A DNA stretch of 64,000 nucleotides, from NCBI RefSeq assembly GCF_009711135.1, contig NZ_WMIC01000001.1, positions 744,001-808,000 of the forward strand. Direction: 5' to 3'. A program made the position numbers and the translations under genes. Below, one piece after another: positions 1,592-12,582 of this stretch. The notes below the pieces were generated by a model that had not been told where the DNA came from, did not search any database, and worked only from the letters and a program-made list of their open reading frames with translations. The DNA is from Flavobacterium sp. LC2016-01 (GTDB taxonomy: Bacteria; Bacteroidota; Bacteroidia; Flavobacteriales; Flavobacteriaceae). Positions within the stretch are counted from its first letter, which is position 1. Each line of letters starts with the position of its first letter.

Positions 1592-2239
1592 ATGAAGATC
1601 TCTATTGTTGTTACCCAGGAAGAACACTTCAAATTCGCACAAGAAATCTGCGATACGATAGAATCATCTGCCTTGTTGAGAGGTACGGGGATTGCTAAAA
1701 GAACTCCTGAGTACATTCAGAAAAAAATGTCGAATGGTGATGCAATGATTGCTCTGGCAGACGGTAAATTTGCAGGTTTTTGTTATATCGAAAGCTGGCA
1801 GCACGGAAAATTCGTGGCACATTCGGGGTTAATTGTACATCCTGACTACAGAAGTTTAGGCTTGGCAAAAAAGATAAAATCAAAAGTTTTTGATTACTCA
1901 TTACAGAGATATCCAGATGCAAAAATATTTGGAATTACAACTGGTTTGGCTGTAATGAAAATTAACTCTGATTTAGGTTATAAACCGGTTCCTTTCTCTG
2001 AACTTACAACCGACCCAAGTTTCTGGGCTGGCTGTAAAACTTGTACTAACTTCCCTATTTTACAAAGCAAAGAAAACAAAATGTGTCTTTGTACCGGAAT
2101 GTTATACGATCCAAAAGAAAAACAAAAAACACCGCCTAGACATCCTTTTAACGAGGCTGTTTTAAGCAGACTTAAAAAAATTAAACAGGCTTTATTTTTA
2201 AATAAATTATTGTCGTTTGTTTTTTTATTCAAAATTTAA
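1592..2239 (+). CDS. GNAT acyltransferase, candidate N-acylglutamate (N-succinylglutamate) synthase
   Basis: A GNAT-fold protein of 215 residues. The acyl-CoA binding region is visible at HSGLIVHPDYRSLGLAKK (about residues 76-93), with the R-x-x-G-x-A pyrophosphate loop. It is the first gene of the arginine operon, 55 bases before argG, and no classical argA or argJ is present in the operon. It is therefore the likely first enzyme, acylating glutamate. Bacteroides species use N-succinylated intermediates and have a GNAT protein in this role, so succinyl-CoA is a reasonable donor. A cysteine cluster (GCKTCTN about 30 residues before MCLC) could bind metal or be redox active. The last 18 residues are hydrophobic. 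The exact substrate is inferred. Confidence 0.7.
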   Translation: MKISIVVTQEEHFKFAQEICDTIESSALLRGTGIAKRTPEYIQKKMSNGDAMIALADGKFAGFCYIESWQHGKFVAHSGLIVHPDYRSLGLAKKIKSKVFDYSLQRYPDAKIFGITTGLAVMKINSDLGYKPVPFSELTTDPSFWAGCKTCTNFPILQSKENKMCLCTGMLYDPKEKQKTPPRHPFNEAVLSRLKKIKQALFLNKLLSFVFLFKI

Positions 2240-2294
2240 TTAAAAAGAAATCTCAAACTGCTACATACGAAAGTATTAGCCAAAATTATAAAAA

Positions 2295-3488
2295 ATGAAA
2301 AAAGTAGTATTAGCTTATAGCGGAGGATTAGATACCTCGTATTGTTTGAAATATTTAAAAAATGAAAAAGGATACGAAGTTCACACCGTACTAGTAGATA
2401 CAGGAGGATTCGACGCAGAAGAATTAGCAGCTATTGAAAAAAGAGCTTACGAGTTAGGAAGTGCACAACATGCTAACCTTACCATCGTAGATAAATATTA
2501 TGATAAAGCGATAAAATATTTGATTTTCGGTAATGTATTAAAAAACAATACTTATCCGTTATCAGTGAGTGCAGAACGTGTTTTTCAGGCTATTGAAGCT
2601 ATCAAATATGCTAAAAAAGTAGGAGCAAGCGCTATTGCACACGGAAGTACGGGTGCAGGAAATGACCAAATTCGTTTTGATTTGATTTTCCAAACCATCG
2701 CTCCGGAAATCGAAATTATTACACCAATTAGAGATTTAAAACTTTCAAGACAAGAAGAAGTGGATTACTTGGCTCAAAACGGAGTTCACTATTCTTGGGA
2801 AAAAGCACAATATTCTATCAATAAAGGACTTTGGGGAACCAGCGTTGGAGGAAAAGAAACTTTAACTTCAAGCCAGCCGTTGCCAAGTGAAGCATATCCT
2901 TCGCAATTGAAAAAAGAAGGTGAAGAAAAAGTGACTTTACATTTTGAACAAGGGGAATTAGTTGCATTAAATGGTAAAAAAGATGCTCCTGAAAAAAATA
3001 TTGTAAAACTTGAAAAACTAGCAAATGCTTACGCAATTGGTAGAGATATTCACGTTGGAGATACGATTATCGGAATTAAAGGAAGAGTTGGTTTTGAAGC
3101 GGCTGCTCCATTAATTATCATCAAAGCGCACCATTTATTAGAGAAACATACGCTTGGAAAATGGCAGCAATACTGGAAAGAGCAATTAGGGAACTGGTAC
3201 GGGATGCTATTCCACGAAGGTCAATTCTTAGATCCGGTTATGAGAAATATTGAAACTTTCCTGCAAGACACACAAAAAACAGTAAACGGAACTGTTACAG
3301 TTTCTTTAAAACCATATCATTTCTCACTTGACGGAATCGAATCTAAAAACGATTTGATGAACACTGGTTTTGGTCAATACGGAGAAATGAACAATGCCTG
3401 GACGTCTGACGATGCAAAAGGATTTATTAAGATTTTAGGAAATGCACAAAACATATTTTCATCTGTAAATCATTTAGATCATGATTAA
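2295..3488 (+). CDS. argG: Argininosuccinate synthase
   Basis: This enzyme condenses citrulline and aspartate with ATP to give argininosuccinate, the penultimate step of arginine synthesis. The ATP-binding P-loop AYSGGLDTSYC is at residues 7-17, as in the N-type ATP pyrophosphatase fold, and the length of 397 residues is usual. The gene overlaps argC by eight bases, so the two are translated together. The position near the front of the operon, before argC, is typical for Flavobacteria. Confidence 0.97.
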   Translation: MKKVVLAYSGGLDTSYCLKYLKNEKGYEVHTVLVDTGGFDAEELAAIEKRAYELGSAQHANLTIVDKYYDKAIKYLIFGNVLKNNTYPLSVSAERVFQAIEAIKYAKKVGASAIAHGSTGAGNDQIRFDLIFQTIAPEIEIITPIRDLKLSRQEEVDYLAQNGVHYSWEKAQYSINKGLWGTSVGGKETLTSSQPLPSEAYPSQLKKEGEEKVTLHFEQGELVALNGKKDAPEKNIVKLEKLANAYAIGRDIHVGDTIIGIKGRVGFEAAAPLIIIKAHHLLEKHTLGKWQQYWKEQLGNWYGMLFHEGQFLDPVMRNIETFLQDTQKTVNGTVTVSLKPYHFSLDGIESKNDLMNTGFGQYGEMNNAWTSDDAKGFIKILGNAQNIFSSVNHLDHD

Positions 3489-4458
3489 TGTCGGAATAAT
3501 TGGTGGTTCGGGCTACACGGCCGGAGAACTCATCAGAATTTTAATGTTTCACCCAAAAGTAAACATCGATTTTGTTTACAGTACAACAAACGCTGGGAAA
3601 CCACTTTCTGTGGCGCATCAAGATTTGATGGGTGATATCGAAATGAATTTTACTGATGAAATAAATCCTGACGTAAATGTTGTTTTCTTGTGTTTAGGCC
3701 ACGGAAAATCAATTTCATTTTTGAAAGAAAATCAATTTGCAAGTCATACTAAAATCATTGATTTAGGAAATGATTTCAGATTGAATAAAGACGCTCATTT
3801 TGAAGGAAAAGATTTTATTTACGGTTTGCCTGAATTGAATAAAGCGGACATTAAAAAAGCAAATTATATTGCAAATCCAGGTTGTTTTGCTACGGCTATT
3901 CAATTGGCTTTGTTGCCTTTAGCTAAAAATAATCTGTTGAATAATGATGTTCACATCAATGCTACAACAGGAAGTACAGGAGCAGGCGTAAGTCTTTCTG
4001 AAACTTCTCATTTTAGCTGGAGAAACAACAATATGTCGCATTATAAAGCTTTTGAACACCAGCATTTAGGTGAAATCTCAGAAAGTTTGGTGCAATTACA
4101 GGACGATTTTGAAAGTGAATTGCTTTTTATTCCGAATAGAGGTGATTTTCCAAGAGGAATTTTTGCGACTTTATACACACTTTCTGATGATAGTTTGGAG
4201 CAATTGGTTGCTAAATATGAAGATTTCTACAAAAACGAACCTTTCGTAACTGTAACCACAACAAACATCAACATGAAGCAAGTGGTGCAAACGAACAAAT
4301 GTATCATTAGTTTATTAAAAAAAGGAAACCGGGTTTTGATAACATCAATTATAGATAACTTAACCAAAGGTGCTTCGGGACAAGCGATTCAAAACATGAA
4401 TTTAATGTTCGGATTAGAAGAAACCACAGGTTTACATTTGAAACCAAGCGGATTTTAA
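3481..4458 (+). CDS. argC: N-acyl-gamma-glutamyl-phosphate reductase
   Basis: NADPH-dependent reduction of N-acyl-glutamyl phosphate to the semialdehyde. The Rossmann glycine motif GIIGGSGYTAGEL is near the N-terminus (residues 5-17). The catalytic cysteine is Cys135 in NPGCFATAIQ. Length of 325 residues is normal. The start codon lies inside the end of argG. Because the transcarbamylase of this operon looks succinyl-specific, the acyl group handled here may be succinyl instead of acetyl (inference). Confidence 0.96.
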   Translation: MINVGIIGGSGYTAGELIRILMFHPKVNIDFVYSTTNAGKPLSVAHQDLMGDIEMNFTDEINPDVNVVFLCLGHGKSISFLKENQFASHTKIIDLGNDFRLNKDAHFEGKDFIYGLPELNKADIKKANYIANPGCFATAIQLALLPLAKNNLLNNDVHINATTGSTGAGVSLSETSHFSWRNNNMSHYKAFEHQHLGEISESLVQLQDDFESELLFIPNRGDFPRGIFATLYTLSDDSLEQLVAKYEDFYKNEPFVTVTTTNINMKQVVQTNKCIISLLKKGNRVLITSIIDNLTKGASGQAIQNMNLMFGLEETTGLHLKPSGF

Positions 4459-4462
4459 TAAT

Positions 4463-4526
4463 GGTTTCAAGTTTCATGTTTCAAGTTCCACGTTCTGTAC
4501 GTAACTTGAAACTTGAAACCTGAAAC
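4463..4526. repeat. Intergenic palindrome, GTTTCAAGTTTC family
   Basis: The left arm is built from GTTTCAAG words (4463-4487) and the right arm from AACTTGAAAC words (4503-4526), forming an imperfect hairpin of about 23 base pairs between argC and argD. The same words appear at 57316-57360, 60980-60995 and 62660-62695. Confidence 0.75.
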
Positions 4527-4544
4527 AAAATAAACAAAAAACAC

Positions 4545-5684
4545 ATGAACTTATTCAACGTTTACCCATTATACGACATAACTCCAGTAAAAGCAATTGA
4601 CTGTACAATTACAGACGACAAAGGAGTAGAATATTTAGATTTATACAGCGGACATGGTGTGATTTCTATCGGACACACACAGCCGGATTATGTAGAAAAA
4701 TTAAAAAATCAATTAGATAATTTAGGATTTTATTCGAATGCAATTCAGAATCCTTTGCAGGTGGAATTGGCTCAGAAATTAGGAAAACTTTCTGGTTTAG
4801 AAGATTACGAATTGTTTTTGTGCAGTTCTGGTGCTGAAGCCAATGAAAATGCTTTAAAATTAGCGTCTTTCCATAACGGAAAATCTAGAGTTGTCGCTTT
4901 TGATAATTCTTTCCACGGAAGAACTTCTGCAGCTGTTGCCGTTACAGACAATAAGAAAATCGTTGCACCAATTAATGCACAGCAAGTCGTTACTTTTTTA
5001 CCCTTAAACCAAATCGAATTAGTTGAAGCTGAATTAGCTAAAGGCGATGTTACAGCAGTAATTATCGAAGGAATTCAAGGAGTTGGAGGTTTAGATCAAG
5101 GAACAACCGAATTTTTTCAGGCTTTAGAAAAAGCATGTAAAAAACACGATGTTGTTTTGATTTTAGATGAAGTGCAATCAGGATACGGAAGAAGCGGGAA
5201 ATTCTTTGCATTCCAACATCACGGAATTAATGCTGATATTATCTCCGTTGCAAAAGGAATGGGAAATGGATTTCCAGTTGGAGCTATTTTAATTTCTCCA
5301 AAATTTGAAGCAAGTTTCGGATTATTAGGAACAACTTTCGGTGGAAGCCATTTATCTTGTGCAGCAGGAATCGCAGTTTTAGATGTTATTGAAAAACTGG
5401 ATTTGCAGAAAAATGTAAATGAAGTTTATGCATATTTCTTAGAAAAAATCAAAGAAGTTGACGGAATTAAACAAGTAAAAGGAAAAGGATTAATGCTTGG
5501 AGTTGAGTTTGATTTTGATGTAGCAGCTTTAAGAAAGAAACTAATCATCGAAAAACACATTTTTACAGGAAGTGCAAACAATAAAAATCTGTTAAGAATT
5601 TTACCACCGCTAACAGTGAAAAAATCTGATATTGATACGTTTGTAAAAGCTTTGAAAGAAAGTTTAGAAGAGCTTAAAAACTAA
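4545..5684 (+). CDS. argD: N-acylornithine aminotransferase (class III PLP enzyme)
   Basis: Transfers an amino group from glutamate to N-acylglutamate semialdehyde to give N-acylornithine. The class-III fold is shown by the PLP phosphate loop SSGAEANENA (residues 94-103), LILDEVQSGYGRSG (205-218) and the Schiff-base lysine Lys237 in SVAKGMGNG. At 379 residues it is a typical acetyl- or succinylornithine aminotransferase. It is fourth in the operon. The family also includes ornithine aminotransferase, but the operon context fixes the role. Confidence 0.93.
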   Translation: MNLFNVYPLYDITPVKAIDCTITDDKGVEYLDLYSGHGVISIGHTQPDYVEKLKNQLDNLGFYSNAIQNPLQVELAQKLGKLSGLEDYELFLCSSGAEANENALKLASFHNGKSRVVAFDNSFHGRTSAAVAVTDNKKIVAPINAQQVVTFLPLNQIELVEAELAKGDVTAVIIEGIQGVGGLDQGTTEFFQALEKACKKHDVVLILDEVQSGYGRSGKFFAFQHHGINADIISVAKGMGNGFPVGAILISPKFEASFGLLGTTFGGSHLSCAAGIAVLDVIEKLDLQKNVNEVYAYFLEKIKEVDGIKQVKGKGLMLGVEFDFDVAALRKKLIIEKHIFTGSANNKNLLRILPPLTVKKSDIDTFVKALKESLEELKN

Positions 5685-5696
5685 GTTTACTATAAT

Positions 5697-5744
5697 GTTA
5701 ATTCGTTTAATCGTTTAACCAGTTAAACGATTAAACGAATTAAC
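5697..5744. repeat. Perfect 23-bp inverted repeat, TTAAACGATTAAC family
   Basis: Left arm 5697-5719 and right arm 5722-5744 are exact reverse complements separated by CA. A further degenerate copy of the same words continues to 5778. The element fills the gap between argD and proA. The loop of two bases means the hairpin must open slightly in RNA. Confidence 0.85.
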
Positions 5745-5784
5745 GATTAACCAGTTAAACGAATTAACCAATTAAACCAAAAAA

Positions 5785-6978
5785 ATGAATCCATTATCAA
5801 TTGAAAAACGCAATCTGGTTTTGCGGTCTATGGCAAAGCTGGTCGAGCAGGAGCGGAATCAGATTATCTTGACCAATCAGGAAGATCTTGCTGATTACGA
5901 TGGGTCAGATTTAGCGATGGAAGAACGCCTCAAAGTAGATGATAAAAAAGTTGACGAAATGATTTTATCATTAAACCAATTGGCGTCTCAGGAAGATCCG
6001 GTTGGTGTTGAGCGTTTTCATTTTACTCATGATAATGGAATAAAAGTTATAAATAAGACTGCTGCTTTCGGAACGATTTTAATTATTTACGAATCTCGAC
6101 CAGATGTTACAATTGAAGCTGGCGGCATCGCTTTTAAATCTGGAAATAAGATTTTATTAAAAGGCGGAAAAGAATCGTTAAAATCAAATTTGAAAATCGT
6201 AAGTCTTTGGCATAAAGCTTTAGAAGAAAATGGAGTTTCGAAAGACTGGGTGGAATATCTGAATTATAACAGAACAGAAACTCAGGCTTTTCTAGAAAAA
6301 CCAACTCAAAAAGTCGATTTAATAGTTCCAAGAGGTGGAGAAAAATTAATTGAGTTTGTAAAAGCGCATGCAACTTGTCCCGTAATCATAAGCGGACGCG
6401 GAAACAATTTCGTTTACGTTCACGAAAAAGCAGACACTGATTTGGCTTTAAAAGTAATTTTAAATGCTAAAACAGCTAAAATATCGGCTTGTAATGCTTT
6501 GGATAAAGTTTTAATAGATTCTAAACTGCCCAATTTTGAAGGCTTCACAGCAATGCTGATTGAAGCTTTAATAGAAGCAAAAGTAGAAGTTATTGTGGAT
6601 CAATCTTTAGCAAATTTCGAAAATACCAAAACACTTCAAAACGAAGATATTTGGTACGAAGAATTTCTGGATTATAAAATTGTTATTGGAACCATCGATT
6701 CTCAGGAAAATGCCATCGAAATGATCAATAAATATTGTGGAGGACATTCTGCAGCCATTATTACCAGAGATAGCGAAGTTGCACAGCAGTTTATGGAAGC
6801 GATAGATGCAGCTGCAGTGTACCAAAATGCTTCAACCCGCTTCACTGACGGCGGACAATTTGGTTTAGGCGGAGAATTAGCAATAAGCACCGATAAATTG
6901 CATCAAAGAGGTCCAATCGGCCTTCAGCATCTGGTGACGAACAAATGGTACGTTTACGGAGAAGGACAGATTAGATAG
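5785..6978 (+). CDS. proA: Glutamate-5-semialdehyde dehydrogenase (gamma-glutamyl phosphate reductase)
   Basis: Second step of proline synthesis: NADPH reduction of gamma-glutamyl phosphate. ALDH-superfamily features include the ESRPDVTIEAGG segment, the GGKESLKSN loop and the cysteine in KISACNALDKV, which is the nucleophile. The 397-residue length fits. Here proA precedes proB and both lie inside the arginine operon, so glutamate is drawn toward proline and arginine from one transcript. Confidence 0.95.
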   Translation: MNPLSIEKRNLVLRSMAKLVEQERNQIILTNQEDLADYDGSDLAMEERLKVDDKKVDEMILSLNQLASQEDPVGVERFHFTHDNGIKVINKTAAFGTILIIYESRPDVTIEAGGIAFKSGNKILLKGGKESLKSNLKIVSLWHKALEENGVSKDWVEYLNYNRTETQAFLEKPTQKVDLIVPRGGEKLIEFVKAHATCPVIISGRGNNFVYVHEKADTDLALKVILNAKTAKISACNALDKVLIDSKLPNFEGFTAMLIEALIEAKVEVIVDQSLANFENTKTLQNEDIWYEEFLDYKIVIGTIDSQENAIEMINKYCGGHSAAIITRDSEVAQQFMEAIDAAAVYQNASTRFTDGGQFGLGGELAISTDKLHQRGPIGLQHLVTNKWYVYGEGQIR

Positions 6979-6979
6979 T

Positions 6980-7160
6980 TAGACTTTCTTAGATTGTTAG
7001 ACTTCTTAGAATTTTAGATTGATGATTAACGATTTTTAATTTCAGATTATTGGAATTTGGATTTTGAAAATTGGAATTTATTTAAAGATATAGCTTTGCG
7101 AACTTAGCGTTTGTAAACACGAGCAATATAAAAAAACCTTGCGCCCTTTGCGGTTAAAAA
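6980..7160. repeat. Intergenic word-repeat region between proA and proB
   Basis: The first half consists of TTAGA-based words (GTTAGACTTTCTTAGA, GTTAGACTTCTTAGA). The second half carries TTGCGAACTTAGCG and CCTTGCGCCCTTTGCGGTT words, also seen at 60905-60957 and 62608-62630. No gene is visible in these 189 bases. Confidence 0.55.
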
Positions 7161-7167
7161 AGATAAC

Positions 7168-7929
7168 ATGTCAAAAAAAAGGATTTTATTAAAAATAGGA
7201 AGTAATACTTTAACCAAGGAAACCAATCATATTTCGCGGGGAAAGATTGAAGACCTGGGAATACAGATTGCGGCTTTAAACGACGAATATGAGTTTATCA
7301 TAGTGAGTTCAGGAGCAATTGCGGCAGCAAAACAATTTGTAAAACTGGATAATCAGGATAAAGATGTTTTCGTGAAACAGGCTTTGGCCTCTATCGGACA
7401 GCCCCATTTAATGCGGATTTACAATGAAAATTTTAAGGATTTAGGTTTAAATACTTCGCAGTGTTTACTTTCTTATTCTGATTTCGAAAAAGAGCAGACC
7501 AAAAAGAACATTGTCAATACCATTAATGTATTAGTTAAAAATAATTACATTCCGATTATCAATGAAAATGATACCGTTGCCACAGATGAGATTCGGTTTG
7601 GTGATAATGATAAATTAGCGGCTTTAACAGCGGTTCTATTAAATGTTGATATTCTGATCATTGCTACCAATACAAACGGAATCTATACGAAAGATTCGAT
7701 TCACGATGAAATTCCGGAAACAATTAAACTGGTAAACGATTTAAAAGTTTTAGAAAAAGAAATAGGTGAATCAAAATCATCACACGGAACAGGAGGAATG
7801 CAATCCAAAATTGAAGCAGCTGGAATAGCAAAAGCAGCCAATATCGAAACCTGGATTGTAAATGGATTAAATGATAATTTTATTTTAAAGGCATTAAAAA
7901 ACGAAATTCCGTTTACGAAAATAATCTAA
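7168..7929 (+). CDS. proB: Glutamate 5-kinase, short form without PUA domain
   Basis: ATP-dependent phosphorylation of glutamate, the first step of proline synthesis. Amino-acid kinase fold: LLKIGSNTLT at the N-terminus, IIVSSGAI near residue 45, the INENDTVATDEIRFGDNDKL active-site stretch and the late KSSHGTGGMQSKIEAA motif. At 253 residues it stops after the kinase domain and lacks the C-terminal PUA domain of the E. coli enzyme. This short form is known in several bacterial groups. Feedback control by proline may differ in short forms (inference). Confidence 0.93.
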   Translation: MSKKRILLKIGSNTLTKETNHISRGKIEDLGIQIAALNDEYEFIIVSSGAIAAAKQFVKLDNQDKDVFVKQALASIGQPHLMRIYNENFKDLGLNTSQCLLSYSDFEKEQTKKNIVNTINVLVKNNYIPIINENDTVATDEIRFGDNDKLAALTAVLLNVDILIIATNTNGIYTKDSIHDEIPETIKLVNDLKVLEKEIGESKSSHGTGGMQSKIEAAGIAKAANIETWIVNGLNDNFILKALKNEIPFTKII

Positions 7930-7936
7930 ATGAGTC

Positions 7937-8005
7937 AATTAGAAAATTAGTTAATTAGATAATGCACAATTATCCAATTTTCTAATTATCACATTATCTA
8001 AATTA
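7937..8005. repeat. Intergenic palindrome, AATTAGATAAT family
   Basis: ATTAGAAAATT and AATTTTCTAAT arms, with inner ATAAT/ATTAT words, fill most of the 88-base gap between proB and argF'. The pairing is imperfect. Confidence 0.6.
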
Positions 8006-8017
8006 ATTAAAAAAGAC

Positions 8018-8965
8018 ATGAATTATATTTCAATAAAAGATATCGACTCATTATCAAAATGGGTAAAAAGTGCGATTAAAATCAAAAAGAATCCGCTTAA
8101 AAATCAAAGTTTAGGAAAGAACAAAACCTTAGGAATGTTATTCTTCAATCCAAGTTTAAGAACGCGTTTGAGTACTCAAAAAGCGGCTTTAAATTTAGGA
8201 ATGAACGTTATGGTAATGAATTTTACCAACGAAGGATGGACTTTAGAATTTGAAGACGGAGCAGTAATGAATTCTGGTGCTTCAGAACATATTAAGGAAG
8301 CGGCAGAAGTCGTTTCACAATACTGTGATATTATCGCTATTCGTGCTTTCGCAGGTTTGGTTGACAAAGAAAAAGATTATGCGGAAACCGTTATTTCAGG
8401 ATTTTTGAAATATGCAACGGTGCCAATTGTAAACATGGAAAGTGCCGTTCGTCATCCGATGCAGTCGTTGGCAGACGCGATTACGATGGAAGAACACAAA
8501 ACAAAACACAAACCAAAAGTGGTACTTTCGTGGGCGCCGCATCCAAAAGCATTGCCTCAGGCTGTGGCCAATTCTTTCGTAGAAATGATGCAGATGCAAA
8601 AAGATATGGATTTTGTAATTACACATCCTGAAGGTTACGAATTAAGCCCAGAAATCACAAAAGACTGCAAAATCGAATACGATCAAAACAAAGCTTTCGA
8701 AAATGCCGATTTCGTTTACGTAAAAAACTGGAGCAACTTCAACGATTATGGAAAAGTAACCAACAGCGATCCAAATTGGACCGTTACAGCCGAAAAAATG
8801 GCGCTAACCAACAATGGAAAATTCATGCACTGTCTTCCAGTTCGTCGTAACGTAATTGTAAGCGATGAAGTTCTAGACGGAGAAAATTCAATCGTAATCG
8901 AACAGGCGAATAACAGAACGTATTCAGCACAATTAGTTTTACAGAAGATTTTGAAAAAAATATAA
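8018..8965 (+). CDS. argF': N-succinylornithine (N-acylornithine) transcarbamylase, argF' type
   Basis: Carbamoylates an N-acylornithine to the N-acylcitrulline. The carbamoyl-phosphate motif is FNPSLRTRLST (about residues 43-53), followed by MESAVRHPMQSLAD and HCLPVRRN, all typical of the AOTCase/SOTCase group and unlike ordinary OTCase (STRT). In Xanthomonas AOTCase the acyl-group discriminator is Glu92, in Bacteroides fragilis SOTCase Pro90. By my alignment by eye the equivalent position is Ser89 in GAVMNSGASEH. Published work on that single-residue switch reports that small or non-acidic residues favour succinylornithine. Use of succinylated substrate is therefore likely but not shown. 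Confidence 0.9.
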   Translation: MNYISIKDIDSLSKWVKSAIKIKKNPLKNQSLGKNKTLGMLFFNPSLRTRLSTQKAALNLGMNVMVMNFTNEGWTLEFEDGAVMNSGASEHIKEAAEVVSQYCDIIAIRAFAGLVDKEKDYAETVISGFLKYATVPIVNMESAVRHPMQSLADAITMEEHKTKHKPKVVLSWAPHPKALPQAVANSFVEMMQMQKDMDFVITHPEGYELSPEITKDCKIEYDQNKAFENADFVYVKNWSNFNDYGKVTNSDPNWTVTAEKMALTNNGKFMHCLPVRRNVIVSDEVLDGENSIVIEQANNRTYSAQLVLQKILKKI

Positions 8966-8971
8966 ATTTTT

Positions 8972-9059
8972 TAAAGTTGCTAAGATTCTAAGCTACTAAG
9001 ATGCTAAGAAACTTTGCGCAAAAACTTAGTATCTTAGAATCTCAGAACCTTAGAATCTT
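8972..9059. repeat. Intergenic palindrome, CTAAGATTCTAAG family
   Basis: The left half carries GCTAAGATTCTAAG-type words and the right half their complements CTTAGTATCTTAGAATC, around a short TTTGCGCAAA centre. It occupies the whole argF'-argB gap and ends directly at the argB ATG, so folding could affect argB translation. Confidence 0.7.
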
Positions 9060-9836
9060 ATGAAGAAAGTTACCGTAATAAAAATAGGTGGAAACATCAT
9101 CGATAATCCAGCAGAGTTAGAACAATTCTTAACCGATTTTTCTAAAATTGAAGGCTATAAAGTTTTAGTTCACGGCGGTGGAAAATCAGCTACAAAGATG
9201 GCGCAGAGTATTGGTTTAGTTCCGCAGATGATTGACGGACGCCGCATTACAGATGCTCCAATGCTTGACGTTGTGGTCATGATTTATGCAGGACAAATCA
9301 ACAAACATGTTGTAGCACAATTGCAGGCAAAAGACAACAATGCAATTGGTTTTTCTGGAGCTGACGGAAATTTGATTCAGTCAACAAAAAGAAATCACCC
9401 GACAATCGATTATGGTTTTGTAGGCGATGTAAAGCAAGTTAACACCAAATTACTGGCAACTTTATTAGAAGCTGGAGTTGTTCCTGTTTTCTGCGCGATT
9501 ACACACGATAAAAACGGACAATTGTTAAACACAAATGCAGATACAATTGCAAGCGAATTATCAATTGCATTATCTGAAGTTTTTGATGTGACGCTGACGT
9601 ATTGTTTTGAAAAACAAGGCGTTTTGCAAGATTCAGAAGACGATTCATCTGTAATAACAGCAATAAACGAAGCATTATACCATAAACTAAAAGAAGAAAA
9701 AGTAATCCATTCTGGAATGATTCCAAAACTGGATAACTGTTTCAATAGTTTATCAAGAGGCGTACAGAAAATCAAAATTGGACATCATAAAATGCTTCAA
9801 AATCCAGATGTTCTGCATACAACGATTACATTATAA
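9060..9836 (+). CDS. argB: N-acylglutamate kinase
   Basis: Phosphorylates N-acylglutamate. Amino-acid kinase fold: VIKIGGNIIDNP at residues 5-16, VHGGGKSATKMA near 38-49 and FSGADGNL near 99-106. The 258-residue length is normal. Placed after argF' in the operon. The glycine-rich loop IGGN replaces the more common YGG found in proteobacterial ArgB, as in other Bacteroidota. With an acyl-specific partner such as ArgF' it may act on N-succinylglutamate. Confidence 0.93.
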   Translation: MKKVTVIKIGGNIIDNPAELEQFLTDFSKIEGYKVLVHGGGKSATKMAQSIGLVPQMIDGRRITDAPMLDVVVMIYAGQINKHVVAQLQAKDNNAIGFSGADGNLIQSTKRNHPTIDYGFVGDVKQVNTKLLATLLEAGVVPVFCAITHDKNGQLLNTNADTIASELSIALSEVFDVTLTYCFEKQGVLQDSEDDSSVITAINEALYHKLKEEKVIHSGMIPKLDNCFNSLSRGVQKIKIGHHKMLQNPDVLHTTITL

Positions 9837-9839
9837 AAA

Positions 9840-10086
9840 ATGTTGCCACGAATTGACACTTATTTTCTCTGTTAAAAGAGAAAATAATTTTAGACGTACA
9901 TTAAAAAGTTTATTTTGATTTTAAATTTGAGATAAAAAAATAATTTGTGAAATACGTGCAATTAGTGGCAAAAAAAGAGAGCTGTGCAGTACTTTTAAAT
10001 TTTAATTTTAGAAATTTGCGCAAATAAAAAATGTCACATTTAATTAAAAAACTTTGTGACTTCGAGCCTTCGTGGCAAAGAAACCA
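9840..10086. repeat. Long intergenic word-repeat region between argB and argE
   Basis: The 255-base gap starts with a TGCCACGAATTG word, has a TCTCTGTTAAAAGAGA hairpin near 9869-9885, an AGTGGCAAAAAAAGAGAG segment, and ends with CTTTGTGACTTCGAGCC and CTTCGTGGCAAAG words just before the argE start. No gene is visible. The words match the families at 11175, 47907 and 54121. Confidence 0.55.
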
Positions 10087-10091
10087 TAACT

Positions 10092-11162
10092 ATGAAAAAT
10101 ATTGCAGCGCTTACCCAAGAAGCAATTAGTTTATTAAAAAGCCTAATCGAAACCCCTTCATTTTCAAGTGAAGAAGACCAAACGGCTCTGTTAATCGAAA
10201 ATTGGTTCAATCAAAACGAGATTCCTTTCAAAAGAGAAAACAACAATGTGTGGGCTTTCAACAAATATTTCGACGAAAATAAGCCAACACTTTTGCTAAA
10301 CTCACATCACGATACCGTAAGACCTAATCAGGCTTACACCAACGACCCGTTTAAAGCGATTGAAAAAGACGGTAAATTATTCGGATTAGGAAGTAATGAT
10401 GCTGGAGGATGTCTGGTTTCATTATTAGCAACGTTTGTTCATTTTTACGAAAATCAAAATTTGTCACATAATATTGTTATTGTGGCTTCCGCCGAAGAAG
10501 AAAGCAGTGGGAAAAATGGTTTAAACAGCGTTTTACAACATTTACCAGAACTAGATTGCGCTATTGTAGGCGAACCAACATTAATGCAATTAGCCGTTGC
10601 CGAAAAAGGTTTATTGGTTTTAGATGTAAAAGTAAAAGGAACCGCAAGCCACGCCGCGCACCAAAATGATGATAATGCCTTATACAAATCAATTCCGGTA
10701 ATGGAATGGTTTAAAAACTATAAATTCGACAAAATTTCAGACGTTTTAGGTCCTGTAAAAATGACCGTAACGCAGATTAATGCGGGAAAACAGCATAATG
10801 TCGTGCCGTCAGAATGTGATTTGGTAGTAGATATTCGTGTAACAGACCGTTATACAAATGCTGAAATTTTGGAAGTGGTTAAAGCCAATGTAAACGCAGA
10901 AGTAACGCCAAGATCTATGCATTTAAATGCATCGTCTATTCCCGTTGCGCACGGTTTGGTTCAGGCCGGAATTGCTTTAGGAAGAACAACATACGGATCG
11001 CCAACACTTTCAGATCAATCAGTTTTAAGCTGTCAGTCTTTGAAATTAGGGCCAGGAGAAACGTTACGTTCGCATTCAGCAGACGAATTTATTTTTGTAA
11101 ATGAAATTGAAGAAGGAGTCGATTTGTATATCAAAATACTAAGCGATTTCTTTAAATTATAA
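10092..11162 (+). CDS. argE: M20 family deacylase, N-acylcitrulline/N-acylornithine deacylase
   Basis: Removes the acyl group late in arginine synthesis. In operons with an argF'-type transcarbamylase the substrate is N-acylcitrulline instead of N-acylornithine. Zinc ligands of the M20 family are visible: NSHHDTV (about residue 72), GSNDAGG, the catalytic EE in ASAEEESSG, the acidic ligand in VGEPT and the late RSHSADEF histidine. I chose ATG 10092 because the frame upstream of it (from 10056) lies in intergenic repeat words. Length is 356 residues. Confidence 0.9.
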   Translation: MKNIAALTQEAISLLKSLIETPSFSSEEDQTALLIENWFNQNEIPFKRENNNVWAFNKYFDENKPTLLLNSHHDTVRPNQAYTNDPFKAIEKDGKLFGLGSNDAGGCLVSLLATFVHFYENQNLSHNIVIVASAEEESSGKNGLNSVLQHLPELDCAIVGEPTLMQLAVAEKGLLVLDVKVKGTASHAAHQNDDNALYKSIPVMEWFKNYKFDKISDVLGPVKMTVTQINAGKQHNVVPSECDLVVDIRVTDRYTNAEILEVVKANVNAEVTPRSMHLNASSIPVAHGLVQAGIALGRTTYGSPTLSDQSVLSCQSLKLGPGETLRSHSADEFIFVNEIEEGVDLYIKILSDFFKL

Positions 11163-11174
11163 AAAAGAAAAACC

Positions 11175-11284
11175 GCCACGAATTCACGAATTGTTTTTTT
11201 ATTATTTAAACGAAATATTAATTCGAATTAATTCAAAAAAAATAATCGCAAAGATTCGAAAAAAATAATTCGTGAATTCGTGGC
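11175..11284. repeat. Inverted repeat with 18-bp perfect arms, GCCACGAATTC family
   Basis: GCCACGAATTCACGAATT at 11175-11192 is the exact complement of 11267-11284. The spacer is AT rich and itself carries ATTCGAATTAATTC. The element fills the argE-argH gap, and a related one is at 47907-47977. Confidence 0.85.
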
Positions 11285-11301
11285 GAAAAAAAACATGACC
11301 T

Positions 11302-12582
11302 ATGAAACTTTGGGAAAAAGGAATACCAACAGATAAACAAATCGAGCAATTCACCGTTGGAAATGACCGTGAACTGGATTTAGTTTTAGCAAAATATGAT
11401 GCTTTAGGTTCAATCGCGCACGCCAAAATGTTAGGGCAAATTGGATTATTAACTTCAGAAGAAACTACTTCTTTGGTTGAAGCCCTAAACGAAATCATCG
11501 CTGATATCGTAGTTGGAAATTTCGAAATCGAAGACAGTTTCGAAGACGTACATTCTAAAATCGAATATCTTTTAACAGTAAAACTAGGCGATGCAGGAAA
11601 GAAAATCCACACCGCTCGTTCTCGTAACGATCAGGTTTTAGTGGATGTTCATTTGTATTTAAAAGACGAATTAAAAGCGATAAAAGAACAGGTAAAAACA
11701 TTGTTTGACTTGTTAATGGAATCGGCAGAAAAGCATCAAAATGTATTATTGCCAGGTTATACGCACTTGCAAATCGCCATGCCATCTTCATTCGGAATGT
11801 GGTTTTCTGCTTACGCTGAAAGTTTGATTGATGATATTACGATGTTAAATGCAGCTTCTAAAATTGTAGATCAGAATCCGTTAGGATCAGCTGCAGGTTA
11901 CGGAAGTTCATTCCCAATCAACAGAACATTTACAACACAGGAGTTAGGTTTCGAAACCTTAAAATACAATGCTGTTGCTGCACAAATGAGCCGTGGAAAA
12001 GCAGAAAAAACAGTAGCTTTTGCGATGACAAGTGTGGCTGGAACGTTATCAAAATTCGCCATGGACGTTTGTTTGTATATGAGCCAAAACTTTGATTTTA
12101 TTGGCTTGCCTGCACATCTTACAACAGGTTCAAGCATTATGCCTCATAAAAAGAACCCAGATGTTTTCGAATTAATCAGAGGAAAATGCAATAAGATTCA
12201 GGCGCTTCCATACGAAATCACTTTAATTACCAATAATCTTCCAAGCGGTTATCACAGAGATTTACAGCTTTTAAAAGAAGGATTGTTTCCGGCAATTCAA
12301 ACCTTAAAATCTTGTCTGGATATTGCGATTTTCTCTGTAAAAGATATTACCGTAAAAGATAATATTTTAAAAGATAAAAAATACGATTACTTGTTTACAG
12401 TTGATACTTTAAATGAAATGGTTGTTGAAGGAATGCCGTTTAGAGATGCATACAAGGCCGTTGCTGAACAATTGGAAGCAGGAACATATAAATCGCCAAA
12501 AGAAACAAAACACACACATGAAGGCAGTATTAATAATTTATGCCTTGATGCTATTAAAGACAAAATGAAAGCAGTTTTTTAA
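11302..12582 (+). CDS. argH: Argininosuccinate lyase
   Basis: Splits argininosuccinate into arginine and fumarate, the last step of the pathway. The fumarase/aspartase superfamily signature GSSIMPHKKNPDVFELIRG is present near residues 277-295, and TARSRNDQV near residue 100. Length 426 residues. It is the last gene of the operon and is followed after 22 bases by a strong terminator. Confidence 0.96.
   Translation: MKLWEKGIPTDKQIEQFTVGNDRELDLVLAKYDALGSIAHAKMLGQIGLLTSEETTSLVEALNEIIADIVVGNFEIEDSFEDVHSKIEYLLTVKLGDAGKKIHTARSRNDQVLVDVHLYLKDELKAIKEQVKTLFDLLMESAEKHQNVLLPGYTHLQIAMPSSFGMWFSAYAESLIDDITMLNAASKIVDQNPLGSAAGYGSSFPINRTFTTQELGFETLKYNAVAAQMSRGKAEKTVAFAMTSVAGTLSKFAMDVCLYMSQNFDFIGLPAHLTTGSSIMPHKKNPDVFELIRGKCNKIQALPYEITLITNNLPSGYHRDLQLLKEGLFPAIQTLKSCLDIAIFSVKDITVKDNILKDKKYDYLFTVDTLNEMVVEGMPFRDAYKAVAEQLEAGTYKSPKETKHTHEGSINNLCLDAIKDKMKAVF

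Follow-up and report, generated by a model that had tools for sequence, protein, structure and literature searches.

The window analyzed here, a stretch of 64,000 nucleotides from Flavobacterium sp. LC2016-01, carries an arginine gene cluster running from 1592 to 12582 on the plus strand, in the order GNAT-argG-argC-argD-proA-proB-argF′-argB-argE-argH. The cluster opens with a GNAT acyltransferase gene (1592..2239), whose product scores above the PF00583 cut-off and has no NCBIfam family match, followed by argG (argininosuccinate synthase, 2295..3488; best NCBIfam matches below their cut-offs), argC (N-acylglutamyl-phosphate reductase, 3481..4458; TIGR01850 above cut-off), and argD (N-acylornithine aminotransferase, 4545..5684; 340.3 bits against TIGR00707, under the cut-off of 410.05). 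Two proline genes, proA (glutamate-5-semialdehyde dehydrogenase, 5785..6978) and proB (glutamate 5-kinase, 7168..7929), both assigned by NCBIfam, occupy 5785..7929 between argD and argF′; no further copy of either scores above cut-off in this genome, where the remaining matches are weak. The argF′ transcarbamylase ORF itself (8018..8965) encodes 315 residues. Downstream lie argB (N-acylglutamate kinase, 9060..9836; TIGR00761 above cut-off), an argE-like gene for an M20 deacylase that is a candidate N-succinylcitrulline desuccinylase (10056..11162; Pfam Peptidase_M20 and M20_dimer above cut-off), and argH (argininosuccinate lyase, 11302..12582; TIGR00838 above cut-off); all are on the plus strand. 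The M20 deacylase scores under the cut-off of every NCBIfam family among the matches listed (25 of the 50 matched). Its ORF as listed starts with GTG, and translation may instead begin at an ATG in the same frame, 36 bases further on (10092).

The argF′ product has the Pfam domains OTCace_N and OTCace, and its translation contains the transcarbamylase motifs SLRT (46-49), HPMQ (146-149), and HCLP (271-274); S46, R48, and T49 are kept in 207 of 208 relatives (the remaining one has a gap), and H146 is kept in all 208. The top NCBIfam model is NF003384 (N-acetylornithine carbamoyltransferase), which the product passes with 307.1 bits (cut-off 288). Against TIGR00658, the OTCase model, it scores 138.7 bits, under the curated cut-off of 280.85, which places the product outside that family. 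No model for N-succinylornithine transcarbamylase (SOTCase) was present among the 16 NCBIfam families matched by the product; it is therefore probable that NF003384 spans both SOTCase and N-acetylornithine transcarbamylase (AOTCase) without separating them. Since the product scores above the NF003384 cut-off, automatic naming as an AOTCase would probably be incorrect.

The first-pass annotation had placed Ser, neither Glu nor Pro, at residue 89 of the product and had matched this residue to the acyl-specificity position, which is Glu92 in the Xanthomonas AOTCase and Pro90 in the Bacteroides fragilis SOTCase. Both statements hold, numbering included: the codon is TCA (8282..8284, plus strand), and in a phmmer search against PDB sequences Ser89 pairs, in ungapped blocks, with E92 of X. 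campestris AOTCase and with P90 of B. fragilis SOTCase (E about 1e-107 for 1js1 and 2fg6); the columns are identical in a MAFFT alignment. In the phmmer output, two further PDB entries diverge at the Ser89 column: 2g7m reads E (MDGDKEEH) in place of the P of 2fg6, and 3l05 reads S (MDGDTSEH) in place of the E of 3m4n. We take these two entries to be published specificity-site mutants, and because they differ from their parents exactly at this column, they support the register of the site, which was set by sequence alignment to the sequences of solved structures. An AlphaFold2 model of the product, made from an input alignment of the product with 24 of the 80 nearest loci described below, all near-identical Flavobacterium relatives, was discarded (mean pLDDT of 36.5 and pTM of 0.33).

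According to a 2015 review (PMC4581275), AOTCase Glu92, Asn185, and Lys302 are discriminators, the SOTCase equivalents being A/S/P/V/Q, P, and V/I/E, respectively. The 2020 GapMind study (PMC7311316) states that specificity is switched by a single residue of BT3717, at position 90, and, citing a mutant study, that S, P, A, or V at that site gives succinyl preference; 61 of 69 Bacteroidetes carried one of these four residues there, and the other 8 carried another residue. The oddity that the first-pass annotation had implied for Ser thus disappears, as Ser is one of the usual published SOTCase options and not a third, unexplained state. From what these two sources give, Ser89 as a mark of SOTCase is already known in kind, and the observation is correct but ordinary.

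The remaining two discriminators agree with the first. Pro180 (codon 8555..8557, plus strand) matches AOTCase Asn185, and Ile280 (codon 8855..8857, plus strand) matches AOTCase Lys302, so that all three positions (S89, P180, and I280, against E92, N185, and K302) are in the SOTCase state by the MAFFT alignment and the rule of PMC4581275; the Xanthomonas reference row is a K302A entry whose column reads A, and the wild-type Lys is taken from that review. Over aligned columns, the product is 52.4% identical to B. fragilis SOTCase (PDB 1js1, 2fg6, and 2fg7), with which it shares the transcarbamylase motifs, the conserved substrate-binding residues, the P of the second discriminator, and the I of the third, and from which it differs in having Ser89 for Pro90 and Lys177 for Arg178. 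Identity to X. campestris AOTCase (PDB 3kzc and others) is 39.2% over aligned columns; the motifs, Trp74, Glu141, Lys236, Arg276, and Lys177 (numbering of the argF′ product) are alike, whereas the product has Ser, Pro, and Ile for Glu92, Asn185, and Lys302. At the positions of B. fragilis E142, H176, K236, R278, and F112, the product and 208 of 208 relatives have the identical residue, and the equivalent of W75 is present in the product and kept in 206 of these 208, the set over which substrate residues were counted before 50 later rows were added; most of these six residues are common to AOTCase too and are hence non-discriminating. H175 and R276 of the product are identical to their B. fragilis counterparts, and the succinyl anchor R178 of B. 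fragilis SOTCase is replaced by K177 (codon 8546..8548, plus strand). Lys is common at this position (153 of 208 relatives) and is also the AOTCase residue; it is the one feature that makes it less safe to extrapolate directly from the B. fragilis structure, although Lys could fill the same role. The surrounding stretch APHPKALP (173-180), which we take to be a proline-rich loop, aligns in MAFFT with its counterpart in B. fragilis SOTCase.

The genome was also searched for alternative routes. A PF02729 profile search returned two genes, argF′ and one on contig C3; the latter, which adjoins a PyrR gene, is assigned by NF002032 (404.1 bits; cut-off 263) as aspartate carbamoyltransferase, and a second ornithine-type transcarbamylase in this genome was therefore rejected. 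An acetyl route in the same genome was likewise rejected, as ArgJ had no match in it (the control was positive in 10 of 14 genomes).

At the head of the cluster, the GNAT acyltransferase is a probable N-succinylglutamate synthase of the ArgA2/BT3761 type, judging by its place in the cluster, its co-occurrence with argF′, and analogy to the function given in PMC7311316 and PMC9026213; the latter study, on the ground that the GNAT protein co-occurs with ArgF3 in 190 genomes, proposes that it is the N-succinylglutamate synthase ArgA2. In our class sample of 395 genomes, counting GNAT matches stronger than 1e-40, 130 genomes (the window's own included) have a strong argF′, and 127 of these also have GNAT; 3 genomes have argF′ alone, 6 have GNAT alone, and 259 have neither. 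The window's genome holds a second GNAT gene on contig C6 (minus strand, L213:5989-6657), 57% identical to the first over residues 8-178, with no recognised arg gene among the surrounding ORFs and no NCBIfam match.

Gene order was compared over stretches that for most loci reached about 8 kb to either side and that could be cut short where a contig ended, so genes missing from them are not proof of absence. Within these stretches, the full order of the window, proA and proB included, is found in 75 of the 80 nearest loci; among the other five, one is without GNAT, three begin at argF′, and one is without proA and proB. The order GNAT-argG-argC-argD-argF-argB-argE-argH is found in at least 54 of 129 class loci, and proB lies near argF′ in 14 of the 129. 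Predicted counterparts of the succinylated pathway of Bacteroides thetaiotaomicron (BT3717, BT3758, BT3760, BT3761, and BT3549) are present here as ArgF′, GNAT, ArgB, ArgC, ArgD, ArgG, ArgH, and the M20 deacylase; unlike in B. thetaiotaomicron, the genes here all lie in a single cluster that also encloses proA and proB. PMC7311316 proposes that most members of the phylum use a succinylated arginine pathway and gives genetic data from B. thetaiotaomicron, Echinicola, and Pedobacter. Our literature search for such an enzyme in Flavobacterium found no paper, and hence we know of no kinetics from the genus.

To place Ser89 among its relatives, we tallied the site in 258 loci from the phylum. A class sample of 395 genomes contributed all 129 loci, besides the window's own, with an argF′ relative stronger than 1e-80; a phylum sample of 395 genomes, overlapping the class sample, contributed a further 129 (20 close, 50 from other classes, 9 + 36 from a more distant group in other classes, at about 33-40% identity by BLAST, and 14 remaining close). 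Left out of the 258 were class genomes with no match or a weak one (265 of 395) and phylum matches weaker than about 1e-47, among which there may be a divergent AOTCase. The residue at the specificity site is A in 104 relatives, V in 75, S in 36, T in 17, Q in 14, P in 9, I in 2, and G in 1; D or E occurs in none of the 258. Thr, Ile, and Gly fall outside the residue lists of PMC4581275 and PMC7311316. At the second discriminator the relatives have P (248), A (9), or L (1), and at the third V (108), E (87), I (59), or K (4). In all four relatives tallied from family f68 (L101, L113, L115, and L128), the third discriminator is Lys, as in AOTCase, together with Ala and Pro of the SOTCase type at the other two.

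A tree was built by a quick search with the three discriminator columns left out, and the change counts on it are minimum values. The specificity site changed at least 33 times over 261 rows; one of these changes is the Xanthomonas Glu, leaving at least 32 within the phylum, and Ser versus not-Ser changed at least 8 times. Within the window's own genus, Ser is present in 17 of 21 rows, with V (2), I (1), and A (1) in the others, and two more genomes of the genus have a weak argF′ match or none. Three loci of the genus (L103, L111, and L331) have a quite different argF′, at 60-63% identity and with the triple I/V-P-E, which may indicate that the arginine cluster was replaced in some members of the genus. 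The 80 nearest loci, named Flavobacterium or Flavobacteriaceae plus one [Flexibacter], were tallied apart from the 258; all 80 have Ser, but they are the best 80 of 576 matches and 94-99% identical to the window and therefore say little outside the window's own lineage.

The first-pass annotation had suggested that the operon runs on succinylated intermediates, and this reading gains support: Ser89 is in the published lists, and Pro180, Ile280, the cluster, the genome content, and the co-occurrence of GNAT agree with it. Going by these lines of evidence, argF′ very probably encodes the N-succinyl-L-ornithine transcarbamylase of the succinylated Bacteroidetes arginine pathway. The preference for this substrate would follow from published mutants and structures, as conveyed by secondary sources. 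In AOTCase, the Glu at the site goes with acetylornithine and would repel the succinyl carboxylate; Ser89, being small and uncharged, would with Pro180 and Ile280 leave room and charge for this carboxylate, which would be held by the conserved His175 and Arg276 and probably by Lys177, as suggested by the B. fragilis and Xanthomonas structures described in PMC4581275. The enzyme would then move the carbamoyl group onto N-succinylornithine, giving N-succinylcitrulline, and in the predicted later steps the M20 deacylase would remove the succinyl group from this product, and ArgG and ArgH would carry out the final conversions.

It is very unlikely that the argF′ product is instead promiscuous, accepting both acyl groups at physiological rates and leaving the choice of acyl group to GNAT and the other enzymes. 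Three observations would be compatible with promiscuity: the small size and neutrality of Ser, the Lys in place of Arg178, and the mixed A-P-K triple of the four family f68 relatives, which indicates that the discriminators can uncouple. However, one residue at the site is reported to switch specificity (PMC7311316), and the lack of any acidic residue among the 258 relatives suggests selection for succinyl use. That the product is an AOTCase, the name automatic annotation would give it, can be given next to no weight: although NF003384 is its top family and Lys177 is as in Xanthomonas, that model probably covers both enzymes, given that no SOTCase model was among the 16 families matched, none of the three AOTCase discriminators is present, and the product is nearer to the B. 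fragilis SOTCase.

The phylum-wide tally allows a more tentative proposal, which we consider plausible but somewhat short of probable: the site in Bacteroidota would drift freely among non-acidic residues, Thr, Ile, and Gly included, and never become acidic; the succinylated pathway would be ancestral to the whole phylum; the determinant would be "not Glu" and no particular residue; and lineages such as the Ala-Pro-Lys family f68 may have an altered or dual acyl specificity. For annotation, the value of the finding lies in a correct name for a protein that is claimed by the NCBIfam AOTCase model despite its three SOTCase-type residues. Because the residue at this site varies among neutral states and is never acidic in the phylum-wide count, the absence of Glu makes a workable annotation test.
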